Source of the DNA: a virus | Virus record (IMG/VR): IMGVR_UViG_3300045125_000171 | Location: 1 to 29,544 of that record | DNA length: 29,544 nt | Reading direction: 5' to 3' (one strand) | Shown here: positions 1,370-29,544 of the stretch, piece by piece | Numbering within the stretch: the stretch's first letter is position 1 | How the letters are laid out: each line of letters opens with the position of its first letter | Translations under genes and position numbers: made by a program | The notes under the pieces: model-generated | Databases searched by the model: none | What the model saw: only the letters and a program-made list of their open reading frames with translations | What the model was told of the DNA's origin: nothing

Positions 1370-1903
1370 GTAATCGGGACGGCGAGATAGTTCCAGCCGT
1401 CGTAGCCATCCAGCAGCCGGTAGTTGTTGTTTTCAAAGCTGCCCGGGAAGAAGACCAGCAGCCGCCCTTTGACCAGCGGGGCCAGACGGTCGACAACCTC
1501 TTTGACTTTCAGAAATCCGAAGAGGGGAACCGACGCCTTTGATCGCCACGACAAAACCAGGGCCAATCTCGTTCTTATGCAGGAAGATCTCAAATTCACT
1601 GGCGATGAAGTCGAGGTATTTCGGCAGCAGGGTGGGGAGCAGGTGGGGCTTTTGGAAATAGCTTCGGGCATATTTTTGCGAGGCGAGCCAGATGGCAAAC
1701 GTATCCGTCAGGTCGAATATTGCCCATTCGTGGCCGGCCTGCCTGGTGACAATCTCAAATTCATCAATTTTAGCCCGGAGTCGACGTTCCTCATCTTCAT
1801 TGTAGACGCAGAAGATCACCCGTTGTGGCGCGGCGGCATCATCGCGCCAGGGAACAGAGATATATTTATTGTAGGACTGCAACAGTCGCTTAACCCTGCT
1901 CAC
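1351..1903 (-). CDS. brxB: BREX protein BrxB (DUF1788)
   Basis: BrxB is a small conserved component of type 1 BREX. The composite reads RVKRLLQSYNKYISVPWRDD, then VIFCVYNEDEERRLRAKIDEF, an acidic WAIFDLTDTFAIWLASQKYA segment, and the diagnostic tail LLVFFPGSFENNNYRLLDG, DGWNYLAVPI. That tail is typical of DUF1788. I place the start at a GTG at 1903, which overlaps the end of brxA, so the two are probably translationally coupled. One clear frame break lies near 1525, where the peptide runs from GFVVAIKGVGS into LFGFLKVKEVVDRL. The length of about 184 codons fits the family. The stop at 1351-1353 lies inside the tandem duplication. Confidence 0.9.
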
Positions 1904-2753
1904 GAAGCAACTCCATCTCTTTTTGATTGATCTGGTTTGGAAATAGCACCTCGATGACATCACCAACGCGCTTGAAGACGATCCAGCCCCGGCGCGAAGC
2001 CTCCTGCGCGAGTTCAATCCCGGTGTCGATTGAGCAATCGAGCAGCTTGAAGTATTCAGTTTGAAAAAGTGACGGCCCACGCTCACCGGTAAGATAAACT
2101 GAGGAGCAGGGCATAGGAGACACTCCCGGTGGTAGCTCTGGCACGGGAGCGTACCTTTCGCGCACGTCCATTGAGGTGGCCGGATTTGGTCAATGTCGAA
2201 TTGATATTCTGTGCGGTCGATTTCAGCGTCGCCTTGCTGAAACGACCGGGCTCCTGGTGGTCGATAAACTCCTCGACAGATTGACGTGTAATAACAGCGC
2301 CATCTCGGCAAATGTTCAGAATGAATGGTGTGGTCGCAGCGCAGGATGGGGTCTCGAGCGCACGCGCAGAGCAGTGCCAGCAATGGCTGTGCATTTATAT
2401 CACGATTCCAGAAATAGAGAAGGGCCCGGAAGATGACTTTGGCTGGGTCGAGCGAGTAGAGATCAACGAGGTGACGATAGGTAAGAATGCGTGTTTTACC
2501 TGAGCGCTTGCCAAGGCAGTTTTCGTCTTCAATTGCGTAAAGGTAGTCGCTCTTTACGGATTCGGGGCTGCGAGACAGAGTTTAACAAGCTCGCCAGTTC
2601 TTCAACCATCATGGTCCGGGAGGAATGGGCACCACCGCGTTCAAAGCTGAATCCGAACTGCGATATTTGTTGATTCTTTTGGTCATTCTTGCTGCTCTGG
2701 CTCAGCACTGCCTTGTCTTCAATCTGGCCTGCTACGCTCGCGGACCCACTCAT
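1890..2753 (-). CDS. brxA: BREX protein BrxA (DUF1819)
   Basis: BrxA is a small helical, DNA-binding BREX component. The composite contains GGAHSSRTMMVEELASLLNS, then KTRILTYRHLVDLYSLDP, LLALLCACARDPILR, FSKATLKSTAQNINSTLT, KSGHLNGRARKVR, and ends FKLLDCSIDTGIELAQEASR, GWIVFKRVGDVIEVLFP. The order and spacing of these blocks match DUF1819. About 288 codons, with four or more frame breaks (near 2560, 2400, 2330 and 2090). The ATG at 2753 is the first in frame; no strong Shine-Dalgarno sequence precedes it. It is the first gene of the visible leftward BREX operon and overlaps the start of brxB by 14 bases. Confidence 0.88.
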
Positions 2754-3164
2754 CGATCTGTCTCATGAATATCCAGAGATGACCAATCCATAGTCAGGCT
2801 CGCTAATTCACTGCTGACCCGGTCTCGCTTTATCCCGAGACCGGCTCAAATTTTATCCATGGATAGTGGTCCAGTCTTCGATTTTCCGTGGTGTTGTTCC
2901 TGGGGCTTGCCATTATCTCAAGAAGTACGAAGCCAGATTATCGAAAGAATTTAATGAATGTACAATTTATGCCCAAGAAGGCCAATTCCAACCATTTGAA
3001 ATTACGTTGGCTTCAGGCAACTGTCAAGGATATTGATGACATTCGTCAGCGATACTCCGAAGATCCATGTTTCGATCACGTATTTTCCCCGACCTCTCCT
3101 CCGAAAAAGAGGAAATTGTATAAATAAAAGAAAATACTGAAACTATCCCGCAGACTGAGCTGCC
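2754..3164. other. Divergent intergenic region, no gene assigned
   Basis: This stretch separates the leftward BREX genes from the rightward AlbA/RecG-like gene. An open stretch at 2888-3127 on the plus strand could belong to a degraded N-terminal part of the downstream gene, but I see no recognisable AlbA_2 motif in any frame. Promoters for both directions should lie here; I could not single out a convincing pair. Confidence 0.4.
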
Positions 3165-3820
3165 AATCTGAAGTTGCCGTTTGCCTACATTCCCAGTCCA
3201 CCAACTCTGTTCACCGATCCTGTGCGTTCTGGTCAGTCTCCGGTTCACGAAGCGATTCAGGAGGCGCTTGTGAACTCACTGATTCACTCTGACTACCGTG
3301 GGATGGGCGGGGTTGTCATTGAGAAGTTTATCGACCGGATTGAGCTTTCAAACCCCGGGACTCTCCTGGTTTCAATCGACCAACTTCGCCAGGGAGCAGT
3401 TAGTGAATGCCGTAACCCAAGTCTGCAACGAATGTTTCAGATGATCGGAGCGGGAGATAAGGCCGGATCGGGTATCGATAAGATTCGCCGGGGCTGGGAA
3501 ACACAGCAATGGCGCTCGCCTTCGGTCAGAGAAACGACGCAACCAGATCGGGTCAAGTTTGTATTGCCGATGGTCAGCCTGATTCCTCCAGAGTCGGAAG
3601 CCCGATTGCGCCACCTTTTCGGGGATGACTATGGAACGCTTACGCCTATCGAAGTTCAAACTCTGGTCACGGCTGATCTGGAAGGGAAGTGTCTAACAGT
3701 CGGCTCCAGTTGATTCGTGCTGAGCATCCGGTGGAACTCCACGAAGATGCTGCAAGGACTCAGCTTCCAGAGGATTCCTGGACCAGGTTGGCCAGAAGAG
3801 AGTGGTGCAGCTCAGCAGGC

Positions 3821-3881
3821 TTCCCTTTGCGTCGGGAGCTTCCCCCTTTGCGCCGGGAGCTACCCCCTTGCGGCTGGAGCC
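3821..3881 (+). repeat. Three degenerate 20-21 bp tandem units inside the AlbA/RecG-like gene
   Basis: Units at 3821-3840, 3841-3861 and 3862-3881 share the pattern TTCCCYYTTGCGYCGGGAGCT and encode a repeated leucine/arginine/proline-rich peptide (LRRELPP twice). Variable short repeats of this kind occur in the linker between the HATPase-like and winged-helix parts of related proteins. Confidence 0.6.
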
Positions 3882-4321
3882 TCCCTTGTGGCCTCAGGTT
3901 CCACGGATGCTGACGCCCGTCTGCTCGAAATCGCCAGGCCTGCTCGGGAGAAGAAAAAGCTGGCACCCGAACTGACGAAAAGTTGATTCGGCAACTCTGC
4001 TCTGACGATTTTCTGACCGCGGAGAGAATTGCCAAGCCTCATGGAGCGGCGAAAAGACAAATTGCAGGAGATTTATTTAGCAAAAATGGTTGCTAACGGT
4101 ATGGTGACTCCCCATTGTCAATACAAAAAATCGCCAAAATTAAGGTGCAATCCTGTCGCCACCAATTGACGTTCTGACCCAGGATAGACTGGAGTCAAGT
4201 CTTCCGTGAATGAAATGAACAGGAAGAGCGTCAGCTCTTCTTAACCAGACCAGAGCCGAAGCGAGGAGGCTGTCAATGGCGCCGCAGGCGCCGCCGGAGG
4301 CGGGCGAAGCCCATTGACTGC

Positions 4322-5226
4322 CTACGTAGCGAAGGCTATCCCGGATCCCATTCTGTGGACCGCTTCCGGCGTCTGATAGTCGAGCGACTGATGTGGACGC
4401 TCGCTATTGTAGTACCGAAAGTAGCGTTTCAGCCTGCTGATCGCCGGTGGGATTGTCTGATAGTCGTTCAGGTAGACCTCTTCATACTTGACCGAGCGCC
4501 AAAACCGCTCGATGAATACGTTGTCGAGGGCCCTGCCACGACCATCCATACTGATCGCCACCTGATGCTCTTTGAGAATGCCGGTAAACGCAAGGCTTGT
4601 AAACTGTGAGCCCTGGTCTGTATTGAAGATTTCCGGCTTCCCGTGGTCAAGCGCCCTCTCCAGGGCACTGATGCAAAAAGTCACTCTCGAGGCTGGTCGA
4701 GACCTCCCAGCTCAGGATCAAGCGCGAGAACCAGTCAATGACGGCTACCAGGTAAATGAACCCGGCACTGAGCCGAATGTAAGTGATGTCCGTGCTCCAC
4801 ACTTGGTTTGGACGGATAACCCTGATATTCTTCAACAGATACGGATATATTCTGTAGCCCTTCGCCAGGCACTGACAGGCGTGGCTTCGGGTAAACTGCC
4901 ATCAGACCCATCAGTCGCATCAACCGGCGGACACGCTTTGGATTGACCGGGCATCCCTTCTCTGAGCGGAGCCAGTGGGTCACCTTCTCCACTCCAAGGA
5001 AGGGATGGGTTTGTATACTTTTCATCGATCAATCGCATAAGTCTCAAGTTTTCACGGACTTTCCGGACGCGGGTCGTAATAATAACCTGGTACGTGACAA
5101 GCCGATCAGATCACACTGTCTGCTGATGCTGATTGAACTATTGTCCGGTTCGACCAGCAGCCGTTTCTGATCAGTTGTGTAGTCCAGATTTTTTGAGCCA
5201 GTCCAACTCGACTTTGAGCTGGCCAA
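4322..5226 (-). CDS. IS3-family transposase OrfB (DDE integrase), frame-broken
   Basis: OrfB is the catalytic rve-type domain. The composite shows LVEPDNSSISISRQCDLIGL at the start, MRLIDEKYT and GVEKVTHWLRSEKG, RVRRLMRLMGL, then the catalytic residues: the first Asp in VWSTDITYIRLSAGF, the second in FNTDQGSQFTS, and the Glu in FIERFWRSVKYEEVY, ending YNSERPHQSLDYQTPEAV. All three DDE residues are present. At least four frame breaks (near 5040, 4850, 4740 and 4665) split it. If these are sequencing errors the element could be active; if real, it is dead. Its beginning overlaps orfA in another frame, as usual for IS3. Confidence 0.85.
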
Positions 5227-5464
5227 TCTCCTGGTAGAGCCTTGATCTGAGCTCTTCCTCCCTTTCGACTTCGCGATCCCGCCTGGCAGAGAACGCCTCC
5301 GGGATATGGTCGATCGCTTGCCTTCTCCAAAGGTTCACCAGGTTGGGGTGGAGCCCATAGTGGCTCGCGATCTCATTGATGGTACGCTGCCACTTGATCG
5401 CCTCCATCGCGATCTTTGCCTTGAACTGCATGTTGTATGACTTTCGCTGTCTTTTTTCGCTCAT
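5171..5464 (-). CDS. IS3-family transposase OrfA (helix-turn-helix)
   Basis: The protein starts MSEKRQRKSYNMQFKAKIAM and contains ASHYGLHPNLVNLWRRQAI, the helix-turn-helix that binds the IS ends, followed by a leucine-rich coiled coil ending LKVELDWLKKSG. At 97 residues it has the usual OrfA length and is one of the few intact frames in this half of the window. It ends in a run of six A (CTC AAA AAA TCT), the kind of sequence where IS3 elements make the OrfAB fusion by programmed frameshifting. Confidence 0.9.
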   Translation of the reverse strand: MSEKRQRKSYNMQFKAKIAMEAIKWQRTINEIASHYGLHPNLVNLWRRQAIDHIPEAFSARRDREVEREEELRSRLYQEIGQLKVELDWLKKSGLHN

Positions 5465-5757
5465 CGCCCCCTTCAGCTGCCATTTTACACCTTAAGCAGC
5501 TGTCTTAATTTTGGGGAGTAGTATACGGAGAGCTGATACTGAAGTATCCTGAGCTGCCGACCCCATCCCGAACAGGCGTATCGAACAAATCCAGACCGGC
5601 GGTCAACATAAGCCAACTGATCAACTCATTTTGATTTGATCACGGACGTCTAAAATTGATGGCAGTGCTTCTGGCCACGCAAAATGATGCCCCTGGACTC
5701 AATTTATGATGCTCAACTGGAGAAAGTGAAAAATCCGTTCTCCGCCGAAAATTTCAG

Positions 5758-5786
5758 TTGAAATCGCTGCCGGCCTGACATAATAT
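5758..5786 (+). promoter_or_regulatory. Candidate sigma-70 promoter of the phage late operon
   Basis: TTGAAA at 5758-5763 is separated by exactly 17 bases from TAATAT at 5781-5786. Both hexamers are close to consensus. It points at the scaffold and capsid genes about 150 bp downstream and is followed at once by two hairpins. Confidence 0.6.
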
Positions 5787-5804
5787 CCACTCAACTTAAT
5801 TAAG

Positions 5805-5867
5805 AAAGCGCCTACGAGCCCGATCCGCCGTAGGCGCTTTACTCATTTTCCCGTGGTTACGCCACGG
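5805..5867 (+). promoter_or_regulatory. Structured leader: two perfect hairpins between promoter and first late gene
   Basis: A 12-bp perfect inverted repeat, AAAGCGCCTACG at 5805-5816 and CGTAGGCGCTTT at 5829-5840, is followed by a second hairpin, CCGTGG at 5851-5856 and CCACGG at 5862-5867. The first looks like an intrinsic terminator working in either direction, with a weak T-rich tail (ACTCATTTT). It could end host-side transcription, or form an attenuator within the late leader, since it lies only about 20 bp beyond the candidate promoter. Confidence 0.65.
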
Positions 5868-5881
5868 CTCAGTAACCTCCG

Positions 5882-5919
5882 GAGCCACGCCGAGGCCTAC
5901 TCCCAGAGCCACGCCGAGG
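5882..5919 (+). repeat. Direct repeat GAGCCACGCCGAGG, two copies
   Basis: The 14-mer occurs at 5882-5895 and 5906-5919, 24 bases apart start to start, just upstream of the scaffold gene ribosome binding site. It could be a protein-binding site or part of the leader RNA. A related GCCACGG occurs in the preceding hairpin. Confidence 0.6.
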
Positions 5920-5935
5920 GGGAAGAGGACAATCA

Positions 5936-6712
5936 ATGAAAATCATCCTTGAGTCACTCGATAACGTCGAGGAACAGGATCATCAATTCTTTGATGAGAC
6001 CGAAGACGGAAAATACGCCTTCAATCGCGGACGATTCGAGGAGATGGCCAAAGCCGGCCTTCTCAGGAAGAACAAGGAACTGGTGACGAAGTTGAAGGCC
6101 GCCGAGCCACTGGAGAAGTACAGGGATGTTGACGAACAGACCTGGCAGGCATTCCAGCAGTGGCGAGATGACCGTGGCGATGAACCGGAGGATAAGCTCG
6201 AGGAGCCTCAACCGGTCCAGAGCCAGCAACCGGAGAGACAGTTCGATTACAAGAAGCTGCTCAAACAGGAGATCGGCAAGGTCCAGGAGAGCTACGAGGC
6301 CCGGCTTCGCGAGAAGGCCGAGGAGCTCGGACTGTTGCAGGAGAAGTTTGATCGGTATGTCCTGGATCAGCAGTTGATGGCGCTGGCGCTGGAGGCCGGA
6401 GTCATCCCGGAGAGGCTCGATTCCTTCAAGCGGACGATCGGTGACCGTTTTGCGCTCCGGAACGGGAAGTTGATCTATCTCGAGGATGGAGATGAGTCGG
6501 AGACACCAGCCGACAAAGCCATTGGCGAGATCTTCCGCAAGGATCTGGACTGGTTCTTTGCCGCGCGAGAAGCGGGCGGAGGGAGCGGCCAGCAGAAGGT
6601 GTCACGAGCGATCGGCTCAAAGGAGCTGAACCGATCAAAGATGACGCCTAAGGAGAAGAGCGACTACATCCGGGAGTATGGAAATGACAAGTATCTGAAG
6701 CTTCCGATATGA
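5936..6712 (+). CDS. Phage capsid scaffolding protein (probable)
   Basis: The 258-residue protein is highly charged and helical with a long coiled coil in the middle (QFDYKKLLKQEIGKVQESYE, then EKAEELGLLQEKFDR) and ends MTPKEKSDYIREYGNDKYLK. Acidic N-terminal region, central coiled coil and a basic C-terminal capsid-binding tail are the layout of tailed-phage scaffolds, and its place directly before the major capsid gene supports this. It is an unbroken frame. Start ATG at 5936 follows GGGGAAGAGG about 8 bases upstream. In most phages terminase, portal and protease genes would precede it; none is present here. Confidence 0.7.
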   Translation: MKIILESLDNVEEQDHQFFDETEDGKYAFNRGRFEEMAKAGLLRKNKELVTKLKAAEPLEKYRDVDEQTWQAFQQWRDDRGDEPEDKLEEPQPVQSQQPERQFDYKKLLKQEIGKVQESYEARLREKAEELGLLQEKFDRYVLDQQLMALALEAGVIPERLDSFKRTIGDRFALRNGKLIYLEDGDESETPADKAIGEIFRKDLDWFFAAREAGGGSGQQKVSRAIGSKELNRSKMTPKEKSDYIREYGNDKYLKLPI

Positions 6713-6762
6713 AACAGATTGACCTGACGGTCCGGTCATAAATTGAAAGAGGAGAGAAGCAG

Positions 6763-7748
6763 ATGGCGACTTCCGTGGCAAGTGATTTCAAAGTCTACCA
6801 GCAGCAGTTCTTTGGAGGAATGACGGAGACGCTGCAGCAGGCGGTGGACGTTATGAATGCCTCGAGCAACGGGGCAATCGCAATGACGACGGAGCGGATG
6901 AGGGGGGATTTCTGAGTATGAATCCTTCTTTGAGAGCCTGGCGACGCTGGTGAGTCGACAGGACACGTCATCGACGAGCCCGGCAACGGCGGTGAAGCTG
7001 ACGCAGGACGAGATCGTGCGCGTCAAGCTGCACCGGAAGATCGGTCCGGTTGAGGTAACGCGGAAGGCGTTTCTGCAGATCGGGCAGGATCCGGAGCTGG
7101 CCTCGTTTATTCTCGGTCAGCAGACGGCGCAGGCCGTCGCCGAGAATATGCTGAACAGTGCACTGCTTGCGGCTCGCGTATCGTTGGCCAACACCGCGGC
7201 CGTGATGAATGACGTGACCGGAAGCTCAGTCAAACATACTACACACAAGAATCTGATCAACACATTACGGAAGTTCGGTGATAAACAGGGGAGGATCGTC
7301 GCCTGGGTCCTCCATTCTTCCAACTGGTTTGATCTGAGCGTGGACGGTGTCGAGAACCAGATCGACTCGATTGCCTCCGATATCATCCGCGTGCTGGAGG
7401 TGCCGGGAATGGGACGGCCCTTCATCGTCACCGATTCGCCAAGTCTGATCACGGCCGGATCGCCGGACTCCTACTACGTTCTTGGACTGACCTCGATGGG
7501 GATTCAGGCCGTTCTGACCGAGGATCAGTACATTACGACCGAGGAGGTGACGGGAGGCGAGCAGATCGTCAACCGGATCCAGAGGTGAGTATGCCTTCAA
7601 TCTTGGCGTGAAGGGCTACCGCTGGGATGTGACCAATGGGGGTGCCAATCCGGACGACTCCTCGCTTGGAACCGGTTCCAACTGGGATCGCGCTGCCACC
7701 TCGGACAAGGATCTCGCCGGTGTGGTCCTGAAGTGTCACATTGCGTGA
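6763..7748 (+). CDS. Phage major capsid protein
   Basis: The composite starts MATSVASDFKVYQQQFFGGM, continues NASSNGAIAMTTERMRGDF, ESFFESLATLVSRQD, LTQDEIVRVKLHRKIGPVEV, then VAWVLHSSNWFDL, GMGRPFIVTDSP and ends AFNLGVKGYRWDVTNGGANP, LGTGSNWDRAA. This matches a widespread major-coat-protein family from siphophages with HK97-like fold (gp13-like, PF20036 as I recall it). The order scaffold then coat agrees. Two one-base breaks, near 6912 (GGATTTCTGAGTATG, where dropping one base restores DFEYESFF) and near 7586, are needed. GGAGAG precedes the ATG by 6 bases. About 328 codons, a normal size. Confidence 0.85.
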
Positions 7749-7853
7749 GGACGGTGGCTGTCATTCGACCGGGAAGTGATGAGATCGGATCTCGGTCCGA
7801 CTCCTGAACCCGGCCAGAGTGGAGCCAATGAGTAGCCAGAGGGAGATTAAGCA

Positions 7854-8279
7854 ATGGCAACAAGAGATCGACGTCGTTATGCGGCGGCCGGTGGCAGCAC
7901 GACTGTCGCGGCGACCGGCAATACGGACGAGTATGTGATATCGCCAGTCAGCGGAATCCTCACCGAGGCGCTCCTTTCCGGCACTGACGCTTTGGCGACG
8001 AGCAATACGAACTACGTTACCTTCACGATCACCAATCTCGGTCCATTGGGTACAGGGACGAGGTCGATGCTTGCGGCCGTTGACGGGAATACCACCAAGG
8101 CGACCGGAGGTGCGGCGCTCGTGGCCGATACGCGGCGTGCTTTGACGATCAACAGTACGGCGGCCAATCTGCGAGTCTCGGTCGGTGACCGGATTCGTAT
8201 TCGCGCGGCTGTCACCGGAACGCTTGCCAACACGGTGACCGGAGCGGCGTGGCTGCTTGTCTTTAACAGGGAGCTCTGA
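7854..8279 (+). CDS. Phage head protein, possible capsid decoration protein
   Basis: The 141-residue product (MATRDRRRYAAAGGSTTVAA, TDEYVISPVSGILTEALLSG, then TFTITNLGPLGTGTRSM and GDRIRIRAAVTGTLANT) is rich in Thr, Ala and Gly and looks like a beta-sandwich. I do not recognise a named family with certainty. Position right after the coat protein and the composition suggest a head decoration or stabilisation protein. The frame is intact. The 105 bases between the coat stop and this start hold a weak short reading (VAVIRPGSDEIG, with a frame break) and a Shine-Dalgarno (GAGGGAG). The stop TGA overlaps the next start (TGATG). Confidence 0.5.
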   Translation: MATRDRRRYAAAGGSTTVAATGNTDEYVISPVSGILTEALLSGTDALATSNTNYVTFTITNLGPLGTGTRSMLAAVDGNTTKATGGAALVADTRRALTINSTAANLRVSVGDRIRIRAAVTGTLANTVTGAAWLLVFNREL

Positions 8280-8712
8280 TGCGAGTACTGATCTATGGCG
8301 AGAGGGCGAGGCGGCAATTGAGCGGCGCGATCAGTTGCGCCGTGCAAAGCATCACGCTTCGCTGCGCAATCCGGAGTTCTTCAATCCGGAGCAGTTTGAA
8401 CGAGCGGCCGATCTGGTGATCTCAGATGATGAAACGGTTCTGGAGGCCTACCAGAACCTTGGAATCAACACGCAGATCCTGACCATCCAGACCGAGACTT
8501 CAGCTACCAGATGAAGACTGGGCCGATGAGGAGCCGGGCAGTGATGAAGATCACGAGGAGACTGGTCCAGCCGAGGGGACAGCCGCAGCAATCGGCGGGA
8601 GCCGTCAAGGACTCCCGGTGTGACGGCCGTTGAGACTGGAGTAGCTGCAAGCCAACGGCTTACCGATGACGCTCCTGAGGGTGGGATTCGTCCCCGAAGG
8701 CGTCTCCGGTAG
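8279..8712 (+). CDS. Small acidic phage protein of unknown function, frame-broken
   Basis: I do not recognise this gene. The composite starts MRVLIYGER, continues IERRDQLRRAKHHASLRNPE, FFNPEQFERAADLVISDDET and EAYQNLGINTQIL, then an acidic linker LPDEDWADEEPGSDEDHEE and a basic end RPRRRLR. Three frame breaks (about 8305, 8505 and 8605) are required. It is joined to its neighbours by overlapping stop and start codons on both sides (TGATG before, TAGTG after), which argues that the whole span is one gene. A role in head assembly or the connector is inferred from position only. Confidence 0.5.
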
Positions 8713-9281
8713 TGGCCATCACACTGATTCCGGCACTGGACACGAACGCTGTCCTCGATCCGGCTGGCAACACCTATGTCACGCTCCTCGACGCACACGA
8801 CTATTTTGAGAGCCGGTTGAATGCCGATGACTGGGAGCGCGCACCACAGCCGCGACAGCAGCAGGCATTGCTGACGGCGATGCGGATCCTTGAGACGCTG
8901 CCGTGGATCGGGGCACCGCTGCTCGTCACACAGCCACTGGCCTGGCCACGCGTCGCGACGTGTCCGGCTGAACGAGAGAACCGGAAGCGGATCCAGACCG
9001 GGTACGAGACACCGACCGGGGCGACAAGAGGAATCTATGATCGCCGCGGCCGAGCCTGGACAGTCGCGGCCATTCCACTACCGATCTGCCACGCGCAGTG
9101 CGAGATTGCACTCGCCATGCTCCAGGATCAGTCCCTTAACGAGGGGCAGATGCGAAACATGCTCATTCGCACTTCAAATGCCGAGATCGACTACCGGCTC
9201 AAGGCTGGCAGTGCACCCGTGATGGCGATGGAATACCTGAACGGGTTTCTGCTGAACGGTACGGCAATTCTCCGAGCCTGA
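8712..9281 (+). CDS. Head-tail connector protein, DnaT-like family
   Basis: The 189-residue frame is intact and contains DAHDYFESRLNADDWERAPQ, RQQQALLTAMRILETLPWIG, QPLAWPRV, a variable stretch, then ICHAQCEIALAMLQDQSL. This is the pattern of the phage protein family labelled putative DnaT-like ssDNA-binding protein (PF20557 as I recall it), whose members lie between coat and tail genes and probably act as head-completion or adaptor proteins. The label DnaT-like is historical and does not mean replication. The GTG start at 8712 overlaps the previous stop. Confidence 0.75.
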   Translation: MAITLIPALDTNAVLDPAGNTYVTLLDAHDYFESRLNADDWERAPQPRQQQALLTAMRILETLPWIGAPLLVTQPLAWPRVATCPAERENRKRIQTGYETPTGATRGIYDRRGRAWTVAAIPLPICHAQCEIALAMLQDQSLNEGQMRNMLIRTSNAEIDYRLKAGSAPVMAMEYLNGFLLNGTAILRA

Positions 9282-9286
9282 GACTG

Positions 9287-9637
9287 ATGGATCTGACACG
9301 TGCCATGGAGGGAGCCTACAACCAGCTGCGTCGCGTCACGATGGGGCAGGAGACCACGCTCGCGCTCTTTGATGACAACGGGCAGCTCGTGATCGAGATC
9401 CGGTCCGGCTGGTATCCGGAGACGATCGAGGGGAACGAGACCGGACGCCAGGTCTCACAGGTCCGCGTGCTCCAGCTTGGTTCACCGATCGATCTCGAGC
9501 GCGTCACATTTCTGGAATTTGGCGGTGGACGGTACGAGCAGGAGGGCTTTCCCGATCCACCAACCGGTAATCCACGTGAGTACATCTGGCGGCTGCGGCC
9601 GGTTGGCGAGGTTGAGGAGCGATTATGGTTGACGTGA
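9287..9637 (+). CDS. Phage head-completion region protein of unknown function
   Basis: Intact 116-residue frame: MDLTRAMEGAYNQLRRVTMG, then LALFDDNGQLVIEIRSGWYP, LQLGSPIDLERVTFLEFGG and YIWRLRPVGEVEERLWLT. I do not recognise a named family. The mix of charged strands and its position between the connector and the tail-completion gene suggest a head-tail joining or stopper protein. It overlaps the next gene by 13 bases. Confidence 0.55.
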   Translation: MDLTRAMEGAYNQLRRVTMGQETTLALFDDNGQLVIEIRSGWYPETIEGNETGRQVSQVRVLQLGSPIDLERVTFLEFGGGRYEQEGFPDPPTGNPREYIWRLRPVGEVEERLWLT

Positions 9638-10098
9638 CCATTGAGGGAATCGACGACGTAGTGGCCTCACTGCAGGGAAAGGTGAAACGGCTGCGGAACC
9701 TGCGACCGGTCTGGAGATCGCTCCTGGCCTGGCTCCGTCAGGTGACGATCGATCAGTTCGCGACGGCCGGTGGACGATCACGTGACAAGTGGCAGCCGCT
9801 CTCGCCGGTCTATGGCGCACGGAAGTCACGTGTCTGGCCTGGCAAGCCGATCCTTCGGGCGAGTGATCGGCTCTTTCAATCTCTGACCGGCAGCAATCAG
9901 GACTCGATCGTCGAGATCGAGGCCGGATCATTCACCTGGGGCACGGCGACACCCTACGCGCGTTACCACCAGCGCGGAACCGCACGGATACCGCAGCGAA
10001 AGATCCTTGTTGTCACCAAAGCCGATCGCCGCCAGATCACCGCACTGGTCCGTGCGCATCTCGCCAATCAGGGCCAGGTGAGCGGCTATGGCGTTTGA
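9625..10098 (+). CDS. Phage virion morphogenesis / tail completion protein (gpS-like)
   Basis: The intact 157-residue protein contains VWRSLLAWLRQVTIDQFATA, GGRSRDKWQPLSPVYGARK, LRASDRLFQSLTGS, TWGTATPYARYHQRGTA and IPQRKILV. The series of W.PLs.vY..K, iL..sg.L..S and ya.yhQ.Gt...P.R is the signature of the phage virion morphogenesis family (PF05069, phage P2 gpS) and the HK97 gp10-like connectors. It acts in closing the tail or joining it to the head. It overlaps both neighbours by 11-13 bases. Confidence 0.8.
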   Translation: MVDVTIEGIDDVVASLQGKVKRLRNLRPVWRSLLAWLRQVTIDQFATAGGRSRDKWQPLSPVYGARKSRVWPGKPILRASDRLFQSLTGSNQDSIVEIEAGSFTWGTATPYARYHQRGTARIPQRKILVVTKADRRQITALVRAHLANQGQVSGYGV

Positions 10099-10617
10099 GC
10101 CGTTATTTGAAGACTGGGCCGGTATCCGGCCGCTGCTGAAGACGGCACGCACGATCATTGAGCGTGATATGGAGGCGGCTCTCATCTGGGCCTATGGCGA
10201 GAGCGAGCCGGGACCGGTCTATGCACGAATCCAGTACACGCAGCGCCACTCGCAGGCCTTTCCGCTGCTCGTCCTCCAGGCGGCCTCATCGACGCCGGAA
10301 CCGCTCTCGGGAGGTATTCTCCAGCGCCACGTCCTTGATTGCGAGATCTACCTGACGCGTGCCACGCAGACGGGTGAGGATATCGACACGCTTGCGCTCG
10401 ACCTGATCCGGTATCTGGATGCGACCGTGATGTGCTTCCTCTCGGCGCCAGCCGTCGACTGGACGGTGAGTTTCCGACGGGAGCCGATGCCGGAAAGATC
10501 CGCATCTGGTGCACGAACATCGTCTTCGGGCAGCTGCAGCAGGCTACGGAACGGAGCGGGCAGTATCTGCACTCGGTGGCATTTGAGCTGCAGATTGACC
10601 TGATCGAGAGCGAATGA
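10088..10617 (+). CDS. Tail terminator-like protein (probable)
   Basis: Composite: MAFEPLFEDWAGIRPLLKTA, RTIIERDMEAALIWAYGESE, FPLLVLQAASSTPEPLSG, HVLDCEIYLTRATQTGEDID, LALDLIRYLDATVM, then after a break near 10475 FPTGADAGKIRIWCTNIVFG and HSVAFELQIDLIESE. The alternating strands (measurement-like repeats VLDCEIYL, HSVAFELQIDL) and gene order fit the tail terminator / gpU fold. I do not recognise it at sequence level. The stop overlaps the next start as ATGA at 10614-10617. Confidence 0.55.
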
Positions 10618-11139
10618 TGCTGACGAGTGAGCAGATCAGACAGCGCCAGCGCTGGGTACTGACACATCCCTGTCGACGTGTTGAGGATTGCGGAATGCTC
10701 GGTTACCGGATCGATCTGCCGGCTGGTGGAGAGACGATCGCGACGATTCTGACGATCGACCTCTTCAGCTCACCCGTGGCCTGGCATTCGACAACGGCAC
10801 TGATCGGTCAGGATGGCGTCACTCTGCCCGTGACGGTTTGGCAGGCAAATGATCGCACCGGCACTGCTCCGGATCGCCGAGCAGATGATTGAGGGCGTCG
10901 GTCAGTCGATCTGTCGACACGAGGAGGACCAGCTCTCGATTGGCATTGCCAGACTTGTGACGACGGCCGAGGCCGAGATCATCTTTCGTGCCATCGGGCT
11001 TTGTCCTCCGAGGCCACGCGCGATTGGTGAGATCGCCATCTATGACTTTGCCGATCGCCGGACAGCGGCCGAACAGAACACGTTTCTTCCACAGGAGAGA
11101 AGGATTGTCTATGACAACTTACCGCAGATATCCAACTGA
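10614..11139 (+). CDS. Phage protein of unknown function, tail-proximal
   Basis: Composite: MMLTSEQIRQRQRWVLTHPC, DCGMLGYRIDLPAGGET, TILTIDLFSSPVAWHSTTAL, then after a break near 10860 LRIAEQMIEGVGQSICRHEE, LSIGIARLVTTAEAEI and GEIAIYDFADRRTAAEQN. I do not recognise the family. The start overlaps the preceding stop (ATGA) and the end overlaps the next gene by 29 bases, which may shrink if one more indel is present near the end. Confidence 0.5.
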
Positions 11140-26438: not shown

Positions 26439-26754
26439 CTACTTCTGGTCATCGTTTCGACTCAGATACCGCAGCGTTCCGAGCTTCTCGCGGCGCATCT
26501 CCAGCCGGGTCAGCTCAAGCATTGCCTTCTGAGCGTTCGCTTCCGCGAATTGCGATCCAGCTGGTTGAAAATGGCTCGCCGGCCTTGGTTGCCCGGACAA
26601 ACTCTTCAGCCTCACGAGCGTGCCGGATCAGCTTGTCGGCAAGCTGCTGCAGGTTCTGTAATGACCACTCGATCTCGCGCTCTGCCTGTTCGACCGCCAT
26701 CGTCAACTTATCGACTGGGTTTACGGACGGCATAATCTGCTCATTCTTCTTCAT
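26439..26754 (-). CDS. Small coiled-coil phage protein, one frame break
   Basis: Start chosen at ATG 26754 (MKKNEQIMPSVNPVDKLTMA) because GGAGGAACACGTT precedes it; the ATG at 26769 contains that Shine-Dalgarno sequence inside its codons. The helical body reads VEQAEREIEWSLQNLQQLAD, KLIRHAREAEEFVRAT, then after a break near 26515 KAMLELTRLEMRREKLGTL and ends SRNDDQK. About 105 residues, a probable coiled coil with no recognised family. It is the first gene after leader repeat copy A. Confidence 0.6.
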
Positions 26755-26781
26755 AACGTGTTCCTCCATCTGCGTTTCAAT

Positions 26782-26831
26782 AAAAATCGATCCGGCCGAT
26801 CATCAGCCGGCAGCTCGCTTTTCCGCCGAGC
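26782..26831 (-). promoter_or_regulatory. Leader hairpins with U-run, copy A
   Basis: Downstream of the promoter, hairpin 1 pairs GCTCG with CGAGC (26827-26831 and 26813-26817). Hairpin 2 pairs CCGGC with GCCGG (26806-26810 and 26792-26796) and is followed by ATCGATTTTT. This could terminate transcription before the ribosome binding site unless relieved, or be the hairpin pair of an antitermination element. Confidence 0.5.
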
Positions 26832-27113
26832 GTGGTCGGACATTCGCTCTGGTCCATGCTCAAGTCAACTTAAAAAGAGTCCATTTTTGTGTGGTATTCG
26901 GATCTTCCAGGACGCGGCCGACGTTGGCTGACGTGCGGTTTTCCGGCCGGATGGCCATTGGTGCCGGTACCTCGACCGGAAAGCGCCACGTGAGCCAACG
27001 TCGCGCAAATTCGGCCGGATATTCCGGCTGGTCGAACCGGCTATTTGCCAGCCAATGCCGGTTGGAGCATTGTTTCACGTGTGCAACGTGATTTGAAGTG
27101 CGGTGCTCAAGCG
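26783..27113 (-). repeat. Long intergenic repeat, copy A (operon leader)
   Basis: About 330 bp, closely similar to 28815-29140. In the direction of transcription (minus) it holds a 28-base imperfect inverted repeat (arms 26976-27003 and 26919-26946, loop about 29 bases), a dyad AAAAA-N7-TTTTT at 26872-26888, a promoter, and two hairpins followed by five T. It ends 29 bases before the start codon of the coiled-coil gene. Blocks conserved between the copies include ACGTTGGCTGACGTGCGG and GCGCCACGTGAGCCAACGT. Confidence 0.8.
26840..26868 (-). promoter_or_regulatory. Candidate promoter in leader copy A
   Basis: On the minus strand TTGACT (26863-26868) and GAATGT (26840-26845) are separated by 17 bases. 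The -35 box is near consensus, the -10 box is weak. Spacing and both hexamers are kept in copy B. The dyad at 26872-26888 abuts the -35 box and could be an operator or UP element. Confidence 0.45.
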
Positions 27114-27305
27114 ATGAGGAAAATGCCGGCCGAATGCCGACCGGCTGAGTCTGGCAGTTGGTGATGGCGAGGGGGCATTTTCCGCAGTCTACTTCAGGTT
27201 GATCGTGTATCCAGGCCACTGGCTCTCGGGAGAGGAAGGATCGGAGCTCGACCATCCTGCCTGTGGAGGACTACGATCTCTACTCATCCATTCACCTCGC
27301 GTCTG
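27114..27305 (-). other. Spacer upstream of repeat copy A, possible short ORF
   Basis: A minus-strand frame from ATG at 27255 reads MVELRSFLSREPVAWIHDQP, then EVDCGKCPLAITNCQTQPVG, with a CxxC pair and a weak Shine-Dalgarno (CAGGCAGG). It then runs into the repeat, where codons are clearly not protein-like. It may be a short real gene with a lost stop, or nothing. Confidence 0.25.
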
Positions 27306-27724
27306 CTATGGTTGAGCAACGGCGACCTCGACCGGATCGGTTTGGGAGATATCAAAGACCGCGGCTGTCGCGAATCGAAGTTCGGTCGAGATCACTCCAT
27401 TATTTCTGGACGATTCCGATCCATCACCGCGATCTCTCTTCTCCTCGGAACAAAGATGTAGAGGCACTTTTCACCCTGGCGCACCTGCCGTCCTGTGCCA
27501 GCCACTGACGATATCCACCAATGACGGAGACCGTCTCGCTCTGATGCCAGAGCAGAATCGTGTTGGTGATCGAGCAGGGATGACCCTCGCAGGTGATCAC
27601 GGCGCCGAGACGCTTGAGCAGTGCGTCGCGTTCATCCTGTGACATGTTGGCGATCGCCTCCATGGCGGTCTTCAGTTTGGCCTTCTTCTCCTCGACGGCA
27701 GGATTGGCGGATCTATGTCGTCTC
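27306..27724 (-). CDS. ArdC-type N-terminal ssDNA-binding domain protein (antirestriction-like)
   Basis: Start ATG at 27724 after AAAGGAGGT, an ideal Shine-Dalgarno sequence. MRRHRSANPAVEEKKAKLKT, then MEAIANMSQDERDALLKRLG, then CSITNTILLWHQSETVSVIG, GYRQWLAQ, and after breaks near 27480 and 27410 GRQVRQGEKCLYIFVPR and TAAVFDISQTDPVEVA. The s..N.ill..Q...t.v.Gy.qW...GR.Vr.GEk...i..P and final vFDisQT match the ArdC N-terminal domain (PF08401), an ssDNA-binding module of antirestriction proteins from plasmids and phages. The ArdC metalloprotease domain is absent; about 139 residues in all. Inferred role is protection or processing of incoming phage DNA. Confidence 0.75.
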
Positions 27725-27828
27725 ATCTGAACCTCCTTTTTGATGGGTGAGGTGGTTACGGCCACCTCCTGATTGGTTAAGCCGGTGATCGCTGGCGGCC
27801 CGGATCTGGAATCCGTGTCGATGCATCC

Positions 27829-28098
27829 TCACTTACCGTTCGTTGGCAATTCAGGAGCCTTCCGGATAGTTGTAGTGAAAATGCACGAACCGGAAGAAGT
27901 CGATGCTGGTTTGCGCGCGCACTGCTTCACCCAGGCTTCGTGTTTCAGGCATCGGCTGCACTTTCCCTTGCCAAGGTACCGCTCGAGCGAGATCGGCGAC
28001 TTGCACCACACGCACAGCGTCGGTACGAAGTCCTCTCCATTTCCGACCTGCGATTTGCCCAGGGCAGCCGCCTCGTGGCGTTTGTATGCCTCATTCAT
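27829..28098 (-). CDS. Small zinc-ribbon phage protein
   Basis: MNEAYKRHEAAALGKSQVGN, then LCVWCKSPISLERYLGKGKC, SRCLKHEAWVKQCARKPAST and a variable end. The CxxC-(14)-CxxC spacing is a treble-clef or zinc-ribbon knuckle, so DNA, RNA or protein binding is likely. GGAGGTGGCAA precedes the ATG. 89 residues, intact, no family name recognised. Confidence 0.65.
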   Translation of the reverse strand: MNEAYKRHEAAALGKSQVGNGEDFVPTLCVWCKSPISLERYLGKGKCSRCLKHEAWVKQCARKPASTSSGSCIFTTTIRKAPELPTNGK

Positions 28099-28157
28099 TT
28101 GCCACCTCCGGAAGGCTGCTCAAGCCGGCAGCCGTAGTTTGGAAGAAGACGTGCCAT

Positions 28158-28343
28158 CTACCCCGCTGCACCCTTCTCCAGGTTGGCTTTCAGGAAATCT
28201 CCGACACGATCACCGAAAATCCTCTTCTCGTAGCAATGAGCCAGGAGCACTGCTGTTTCAGGTGAATCGGCCTGATAGGTTCCGGCGGCGACGATTTCGC
28301 CGTCATCCTGTATTACCGACACGTCAAAGAATTCAGGTTTCAC
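28158..28343 (-). CDS. Small phage protein of unknown function
   Basis: Start GTG at 28343 chosen because GAGGAGGCGATC precedes it. Sequence: MKPEFFDVSVIQDDGEIVAA, GTYQADSPETAVLLAHCYEK, then RIFGDRVGDFLKANLEKGAA. About 61 residues, alpha/beta, no family recognised. It overlaps the end of the upstream gene by 11 bases. Confidence 0.55.
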   Translation of the reverse strand: MKPEFFDVSVIQDDGEIVAAGTYQADSPETAVLLAHCYEKRIFGDRVGDFLKANLEKGAAG

Positions 28344-28524
28344 GATCGCCTCCTCGTGATGGAACATATGGTGAGTTTGAAGAGAACACCCGGGCAGTCG
28401 CTTTGAAGATCCGCAGCCATTCATCGGCCGTCGCCATTTCGCATCGCCGTTCGTGCACCCAATATCCGGTGATTCGGTTGTATCGCCACAAATGCGTGAA
28501 GCGTCTCTTTGAGCTGGTTTTCAA
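28333..28524 (-). CDS. Small phage protein of unknown function, TTG start
   Basis: MKTSSKRRFTHLWRYNRITG, YWVHERRCEMATADEWLRIF, then KATARVFSSNSP. The TTG start is supported by a strong Shine-Dalgarno (GGAAGGAGGCAGC) and overlaps the previous stop (TTGA). The C-terminal 20 residues may be out of frame. Confidence 0.55.
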   Translation of the reverse strand: MKTSSKRRFTHLWRYNRITGYWVHERRCEMATADEWLRIFKATARVFSSNSPYVPSRGGDRET

Positions 28525-28789
28525 GCTGCCTCCTTCCAGTCATCACTCGATTGATCTGCCAATCCAGCCATCGCCGTCTCCCTGGTCTCTGCCTGCCTGA
28601 TGACGGCAGGACCTCCGGTGACTATCGTCGATCCGCTCGGCATCGGTCACGAACCAGCAGACACTGCTCGCCGCGAGTGTGTACCGCAAAGACCGCGTAC
28701 CGGTTGAACTCTCCGAAGAGCTCTTTCCTGGTCGCCATTTGACCGGCTTTCCGGGGATCGTTGAGAATCTGAGTTACTGCTTTGGCCAT
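28522..28789 (-). CDS. Small phage protein of unknown function, first gene of operon B
   Basis: ATG at 28789 follows AAGGAGGCTCT. Composite: MAKAVTQILNDPRKAGQMAT, RKELFGEFNRYAVFAVHTR, then after breaks near 28655 and 28622 FVTDAERIDD, VTGGPAVIRQAETRETAMAG and LADQSSDDWKEAA. About 89 residues. The last stop overlaps the TTG of the next gene, which supports the composite reading. Family unknown. Confidence 0.55.
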
Positions 28790-28814
28790 AGAGCCTCCTT
28801 GTTTTGGTTTCCGC

Positions 28815-28864
28815 AAAAATCAGCCTGGCCGATCGCCGGCCGGCAGCTCGGTCTTCCGCCGAGC
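28815..28864 (-). promoter_or_regulatory. Leader hairpins with U-run, copy B
   Basis: Hairpin 1 pairs GCTCGG with CCGAGC (28859-28864 and 28846-28851), one pair longer than in copy A. Hairpin 2 pairs GGCC with GGCC (28838-28841 and 28827-28830), followed by GCTGATTTTTG. Order and spacing match copy A. Confidence 0.5.
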
Positions 28865-28873
28865 GTGGTCAGG

Positions 28874-28902
28874 ACATTTGCTCTGGTCCATGACGAAGTC
28901 AA
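28874..28902 (-). promoter_or_regulatory. Candidate promoter in leader copy B
   Basis: TTGACT (28897-28902) and AAATGT (28874-28879) with 17 bases between them on the minus strand. Position relative to the dyad, hairpins and start codon is the same as in copy A. An additional short palindrome GTATAAAAATCATAC lies just upstream (28923-28937). Confidence 0.45.
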
Positions 28903-29197
28903 CTTGAAAAGGTGCACTTTTCGTATGATTTTTATACTTTCCACGACGTGGCCGACGTTGGCTGACGTGCGGCTTTTCCGGCCGGATGGCTGCTGGTGCC
29001 GGCCTGGCGACCGGAAAGCGCCACGTGAGCCAACGTCGCGCGAATTCAGCCAAAATCCAGCCGGTTGATCTGGCCATTTGCCGGCCAATTCCGGATGGTC
29101 CGTTGTTCTACGTGCGGAATGGTAATTTGAAGGAGGTGCTGCTTCTCGTTGTCAGGATCAGCTTCTGGAAGGATCACAATTGCCAGGCTGGATACAG

Positions 29198-29227
29198 AAA
29201 AAGTCTGGGGCAGAATGAATCTGCCCC
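29198..29227 (-). terminator. Intrinsic terminator
   Basis: On the minus strand GGGGCAGA (29220-29227) and TCTGCCCC (29207-29214) form a perfect 8-bp stem with a 5-base loop, followed by AGACTTTTTCTG. It lies 75 bases after the stop of the gene at 29303-29544 and separates it from leader copy B. Confidence 0.75.
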
Positions 29228-29302: not shown

Positions 29303-29544
29303 TCAACAAATGTCGGGCTGCGAAGATTTGAACTCCTTGAGGATGAGTAAAATGTCACGATACTTATCGAGTTGGGAGAGGGTTTGTTCGATATTGTAGA
29401 TGTCGGTGGTCACAAATACTGTCCAGCTCGTATCGTACGGAGGCGTTCCTCGTAATCTTTGAGCATCTTCTCGGCCTCAGATGCGTGGGTGAGAAGCTGC
29501 TTTACCCGGCTTTGTAATAGCTTCCAGGTATCATCGATGACCAT
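29303..29544 (-). CDS. Small coiled-coil phage protein, one frame break, at right edge
   Basis: MVIDDTWKLLQSRVKQLLTH, ASEAEKMLKDYEERLRTIRA, then after a break near 29415 TTDIYNIEQTLSQLDKYRDI, LLILKEFKSSQP. Helical, about 80 residues. The first ATG lies on the last three bases of the window, so the true start may be further out. No family recognised. Confidence 0.5.

Follow-up and report, generated by a model that had tools for sequence, protein, structure and literature searches.

A Duplicated Non-Coding Element with a Sequence-Constrained Inverted Repeat Precedes Two Leftward Gene Units in a Damaged Phage Fragment

Analyses of the IMG/VR record IMGVR_UViG_3300045125_000171 identified two copies of a 334-nt non-coding element, each placed directly before the first gene of a small leftward unit. 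The studied stretch, referred to here as the window, spans the entire 29,544-bp record. A long inverted repeat is the only structure of the element that clearly exceeds chance, and its arms are constrained in sequence beyond pairing. Our preferred reading, which we hold tentatively, takes the element as a promoter-operator control region that occurs twice and co-controls two small leftward operons. An earlier reading of this DNA, made from its sequence only, had proposed a duplicated structured leader that might act by antitermination or attenuation. Our analyses supported its view that a cis-acting, non-coding control region is duplicated ahead of two leftward units, but not its leader-RNA mechanism.

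Results and Discussion

Gene Context of the Element

The record is a damaged phage fragment that ends at position 29544. Late genes of a tailed phage run rightward in it and code for scaffold, a Gp13-like major capsid and connectors such as head-tail adaptor and neck, while small leftward genes extend from its right end. The prophage or contig is disrupted at an IS3-family element. Single-base indels are widespread in the record and break conserved genes; the capsid gene (6763-7736), for example, has two frameshifts relative to an intact relative (L005), with the protein still approximately 80% identical to that of L005. This pattern looks like that of an uncorrected long-read assembly, and since the record is so rich in indels, the single-base gaps between the element copies are not to be over-read. 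The left end of the record has a tandem duplication of approximately 100 bp (1170-1368) whose copies are 94% identical.

In related phages the leftward early or replication genes come after the rightward late genes, which makes phage early operons a plausible identity for the leftward units of the window. The sequence-only reading had called them two phage operons. The late genes in the record agree with a phage origin, but, with the IS3 interruption, the end of the record at 29544 and the indels, the identity of the operons is plausible rather than proven.

The two element copies are 80.3% identical (E about 7e-77) and are the only copies in the record. Each ends 17–19 nt short of a start codon, and a Shine-Dalgarno sequence lies within this interval, so that the earlier description of two copies directly before a ribosome-binding site and ATG was confirmed, and each is flanked on its other side by a terminator-like hairpin of the preceding unit (Table 1). 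Neither of the first genes has an assigned function. The unit between the copies, which follows copy B, includes an ArdC-N-like gene that matches PF08401 at E = 1.2e-7, only if it is read across a frameshift. ArdC-N is an anti-restriction domain that binds single-stranded DNA. Paralogy of the genes near the element was considered and not adopted, as the similarity was 36% over 42 aa of helical, low-information sequence.

Two readings of the duplication that do not involve gene control were weighed. A protein-coding repeat, which the sequence-only reading had itself named as a potential refutation, was rejected: gaps of 2, 1 and 1 nt put the copies out of frame with one another, and their mismatches had no significant or consistent phase bias, including at third positions. 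A mobile repeat, or a DNA recombination or replication site that chances to precede genes, would account for a duplicated element that has a long inverted repeat and is an orphan in the databases. We consider it very doubtful, as the element has neither terminal inverted repeats nor a target duplication, was found in no other record searched, and occurs in exactly two copies that both have the above spacing from a start codon with the ribosome-binding site in between.

Table 1. Positions of the element copies, their parts and neighbors, and of repeated elements in two other phages.
Feature	Sequence	Position	Strand	Remarks
Putative control region, copy A	Window	26774..27107	minus	334 nt
Putative control region, copy B	Window	28807..29140	minus	334 nt, 80.3% identical to A
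Terminator-like hairpin + ATTTT closing unit before copy A	Window	27125..27145	minus	~9 nt from copy A
Terminator-like hairpin + TTTTT closing unit before copy B	Window	29207..29227	minus	Terminator scan
First gene after copy A, MKKNEQIM...	Window	26515..26754	minus	Frame broken near 3' part
First gene after copy B, MAKAVTQIL...	Window	28622..28789	minus	Frame broken
ArdC-N-like gene, unit between copies	Window	27395..27726	minus	Frameshifted; PF08401
Long inverted repeat, 5' arm, copy A	Window	26973..27003	minus	31 nt, identical to copy B
Long inverted repeat, 3' arm, copy A	Window	26919..26949	minus	One indel vs copy B
Long inverted repeat, 5' arm, copy B	Window	29008..29038	minus	
Long inverted repeat, 3' arm, copy B	Window	28953..28984	minus	
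Small hairpin TGGCTG-loop-TAGCCG, copy A	Window	27038..27054	minus	Upstream of long repeat; one compensatory pair vs B
Small hairpin TGGCCG-loop-TGGCCA, copy B	Window	29071..29087	minus	
Weak promoter-like site TTGACT-17-GAATGT, copy A	Window	26840..26868	minus	Last 13–14 spacer bases conserved
Weak promoter-like site TTGACT-17-AAATGT, copy B	Window	28874..28902	minus	
AT-rich dyad, UP-element-like, copy A	Window	26872..26888	minus	Structure not significant
AT-rich dyad, copy B	Window	28906..28922	minus	Structure not significant
Leader hairpin 1, copy A	Window	26813..26831	minus	5 bp; no conserved-structure signal
Leader hairpin 1, copy B	Window	28846..28864	minus	6 bp; no conserved-structure signal
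Leader hairpin 2 + T5, copy A	Window	26782..26810	minus	Weak terminator-like; T run 4–5 nt past stem
Hairpin 2 region + T5, copy B	Window	28815..28843	minus	One C.A mismatch breaks the stem of A
IS3-family element, in frameshifted pieces	Window	4322-5464		Position of terminase + portal in intact relative L005
Twister-P5 ribozymes of Tunturi_4	L141	8349-8409, 9934-9991, 12165-12226, 13092-13149	minus	
Repeated element of RcThunderbird	L138	35053-35155, 36300-36404, 37090-37188, 41753-41846		

Sequence Constraint in the Long Inverted Repeat

The long inverted repeat is imperfect, comprises 31 bp with a 23-nt loop, and lies upstream of the putative promoter in both copies. Its fold had z-scores of -5.1 and -6.0 in the two copies, and none of 300 shuffles was as stable, which upheld the earlier claim of a large inverted repeat. 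The differences between copies A and B were distributed very unevenly along the alignment. There were 31 in the first 100 columns, 8 in the 23-nt loop of the inverted repeat, 15 in the 39 columns of the AT-rich stretch and 11 in the last 46 columns. The arms of the inverted repeat had a single difference in 63 columns versus 74 in the 273 columns elsewhere (Fisher p = 5e-7). A second conserved block, which begins with the -35-like box and extends ~45 nt beyond it, had 6 differences over its 52 columns. Constraint on the arms acts on their sequence and not on pairing alone, because a helix kept only for its pairing should have gathered compensatory changes at such divergence. The structure under clear constraint is the upstream inverted repeat, and not the leader hairpins or the AT-rich dyad on which the sequence-only reading had placed its emphasis.

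The Promoter-Like Site and the Sequence Downstream of It

The only conserved promoter-like site in the element is TTGACT-17-(G/A)AATGT, located behind the AT-rich stretch. The two boxes match the sigma-70 consensus at 5/6 and 2/6 positions (7/12 in total), although that consensus may not be the one of the host. The promoter proposed earlier was found in its stated place, but it is weak, and a sigma-70 scan (at least 9/12 matches, spacing of 16–18 nt) did not list it.

The structures around this site were assessed by alifold, whose z-scores are approximate since the column-shuffled controls do not keep dinucleotide content; all statements on covariation rest on the two copies. The symmetry of the AT-rich dyad had been ascribed to paired base changes. 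We found only one compensatory pair (alifold z +0.6). The two hairpins between the promoter and the gene were not conserved as structures: columns 252-334 and 276-334 gave alifold z-scores of -0.6 and -1.4, no better than the column-shuffled controls, and a C.A mismatch in copy B disrupts hairpin 2. The TTTTT before the Shine-Dalgarno sequence is present as described.

These findings bear directly on antitermination. The put RNA of phage HK022 suppresses termination via the zinc-binding domain of the RNA polymerase beta' subunit. It is ~70 nt in length and has two stem-loops (PMC9378689). We compared put by its published description, as putL and putR were not located in HK022 by self-comparison. 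Like putL and putR, the element occurs as two copies before two phage units, with hairpins between promoter and genes. In put, however, the conserved two-stem RNA is downstream of the promoter, whereas the conserved structure of the element is upstream. In a put-type antiterminator the two hairpins past the promoter would bind RNA polymerase and cause terminators to be ignored. The layout of a promoter and two hairpins, repeated for two units, is what speaks for such a mechanism here, and we regard it as the least likely reading and highly improbable. The hairpins are not conserved as structures, the sole structure under clear constraint precedes the promoter, terminator-like hairpins close each preceding unit right before the element, and there was no Rfam match. 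More generally, antitermination or attenuation by a leader RNA was unsupported, as the constrained inverted repeat, being upstream of the only promoter-like site, would be absent from the transcript and the presumptive leader has no conserved fold.

In a rival reading, the entire 334 nt would be transcribed as a structured leader RNA (an attenuator or an RNA-based switch, with an EGeRS1-like block of read-through), from a start at or before the 5' edge of the element. Several observations are consistent with such a transcript. Both the hairpin and columns 1-100 beat shuffles by alifold, and the conserved fold signal of columns 1-100 (z -3.7 to -3.9) was stronger on the sense than on the antisense strand. 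The full-length alifold included 5 compensatory and 7 one-sided pairs, no pair was broken, and one long-range pairing would compete with hairpin 2. In addition, the EGeRS1 region of conjugative plasmids has ~325 nt of conserved structure directly before the ribosome-binding site and blocks upstream transcription (PMC8708921). Against this, the terminator-like hairpin ~9 nt before copy A leaves no room for a promoter upstream, columns 200-336 have no conserved fold (alifold z -1.2), columns 1-100 of copy B alone folded no better than shuffles (z -0.05), and the arms of the inverted repeat are frozen in sequence rather than covarying. Based on these data, we consider a full-length leader RNA unlikely, though the second most likely reading.

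A Candidate Promoter-Operator Region

A terminator-like hairpin ends so close to copy A that the start of transcription for the next unit is most likely within the element. The inverted repeat is then upstream of this putative start, where an operator or activator site would be placed. The promoter-operator reading is favored by the sequence constraint of the arms, the second conserved block at the -35-like box, the lack of conserved structure past the promoter and the ArdC-N gene in the unit between the copies. It is also favored by known arrangements, since EGeRS regions share the arrangement of the element and Rhodobacter phage RcThunderbird repeats promoter elements with inverted repeats before several genes.

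Based on this reading, we propose that the terminator of the preceding unit would insulate each copy from that unit, and that the long inverted repeat may be the sequence-specific recognition site of an element-encoded regulator. The weak promoter behind the UP-like AT-rich stretch would start the small leftward operon of each copy, and with two copies a single regulator would be able to switch a pair of early or establishment operons in concert. The ArdC-N-like gene of anti-restriction type belongs to one of these operons.

Several points weaken the promoter-operator reading. The promoter is poor, no regulator gene was identified in the truncated contig, a simple operator would usually have arms shorter than 31 nt, and the conserved fold of columns 1-100 is not needed by an operator model. 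There are also only two copies, without relatives, in a sequence prone to indels. We think it rather improbable that the element represents a class of its own, controlling early genes in a structure-dependent manner and without relation to put, Frpo, EGeRS or any family in Rfam. In such a new class, a long sequence-fixed hairpin in DNA or RNA would recur before each early or anti-defense operon of a phage-like element.

Invading elements must switch several counter-defense units on together and briefly. If the long repeat truly co-controls early anti-defense operons, it would be another independent solution to this problem. Occurrence of the same region before further genes would then provide a marker by which new anti-defense genes of uncultured phages could be recognized, in the way that EGeRS served for the pLS20-family plasmids.

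Comparison with Establishment-Gene Control Regions

The best reading of our comparisons is that the element would work like the control regions of establishment genes (EGeRS and Frpo), with EGeRS as its closest analogue by design. In conjugative plasmids of the pLS20 family, EGeRS control regions recur ahead of ardC and further operons for establishment (PMC8708921). Copies of EGeRS1 are 62–95% identical, 420–751 bp in length and have multiple inverted repeats, and the tested copy had no constitutive promoter, while EGeRS2 combines promoter and operator and has two short inverted repeats within its leader (PMC8708921). The window element is likewise repeated directly before the ribosome-binding sites of operons, one of them with an anti-restriction (ArdC-N) gene. 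It differs in sequence: a member would be expected to have a similarity above 60% to the pLS20 or p576 elements, and blastn against 72,556 plasmids, pLS20 among them, gave no significant match.

The F plasmid has near-identical hairpin regions, Frpo1 and Frpo2, before two leading operons kilobases apart (PMC9849209). By analogy with these and the ssi of ColIb-P9, the element could be a single-strand DNA promoter or entry element whose hairpin on incoming single-stranded DNA recruits RNA polymerase for early anti-defense genes. The layout of two hairpin-forming copies before operons with anti-restriction type genes is shared, including the ArdC-N gene, and the single-strand fold of the element was far more stable than shuffles (z -3.7). 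As a yardstick, the promoter-like boxes of F Frpo2 are within stems, with a pairing probability of at least 0.97. The boxes of the element, however, do not lie in the long stem and are mostly unpaired (mean pairing of about 0.35/0.31 in copy A and 0.6/0.2 in copy B), and no box pair was embedded in a stem in both copies. The contig also has phage late genes, and a scan of its ends, in a sequence that is truncated and frameshifted, revealed no conjugation gene. A function of the Frpo type is therefore quite unlikely.

Searches for Relatives of the Element

No Rfam family matched within the window at its gathering score; the best E was about 0.65 and all the families were implausible (Twister-P5 was included in the test). 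There was no significant blastn match to the element among phages or in PLSDB, whose 72,556 plasmids include pLS20, and no homolog in 26 records of capsid-related viruses. Exact arm patterns were not found in viral and species genomes, and a two-arm pattern had no match in 257 Gb of species genomes. Degenerate arm and promoter-block patterns gave no real match in viral_contigs, where, among the matches listed, those that were read were coding or chance. Two candidates were rejected: a pattern match in L031 was a coding coincidence with the HELAH zinc motif of an ArdC gene, and a weak nhmmer match in Variovorax phage VCLv21 was in sequence that looks coding and is without the hairpin. The reconstructed early proteins had no relatives in viral or species genomes, phages or plasmids with the exception of ArdC-N.

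Repeated Structured Elements in Capsid-Related Phages

RcThunderbird and the cultured Tunturiibacter phage Tunturi_4 (PP885687.1) are related to the phage of the window by capsid protein (33–35% identical) and also have structured elements repeated before several genes. These elements differ from that of the window in being only 60–110 nt and unrelated in sequence, and those of Tunturi_4 are self-cleaving ribozymes by Rfam, which the window element is not.

In Tunturi_4, four Twister-P5 ribozymes are directly upstream of the leftward genes gp78, gp80, gp86 and gp87 (Table 1). A larger array is present in a capsid-related phage contig (IMGVR_UViG_3300027896_000024, 20000-39999), in which 15 Twister-P5 matches, 12 of them above the Rfam gathering score, are all on the plus strand within 9.4 kb (1419-10802 of the locus). 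For 14 of the 15 matches, the start of an ORF (50 codons or more) follows 17–85 nt downstream, and the array suggests gene-by-gene ribozyme processing of the phage mRNA. A literature search turned up no report of repeated Twister-P5 before phage genes, which is not proof of novelty. Tunturi_4 also has a permuted tmRNA (RF04321; L136 43532-43941, minus strand) that is flush with a gene whose annotation is RF-1 domain peptide chain release factor (43946-44293).

The repeated element of RcThunderbird, ~100 nt in length, is before rightward genes and has TTGAC-17-TATxTT boxes, an inverted repeat that surrounds the -35 box, and a second hairpin at the start of the leader. Its copies differ in sequence with the pairing kept. 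A weak match to BjrC68, described as a Bradyrhizobiaceae sRNA, overlaps this leader element, and VCLv21 has an above-cutoff match to the same family (L139 42402-42493, minus strand). Based on these two matches, BjrC68 may be a phage leader rather than an sRNA.
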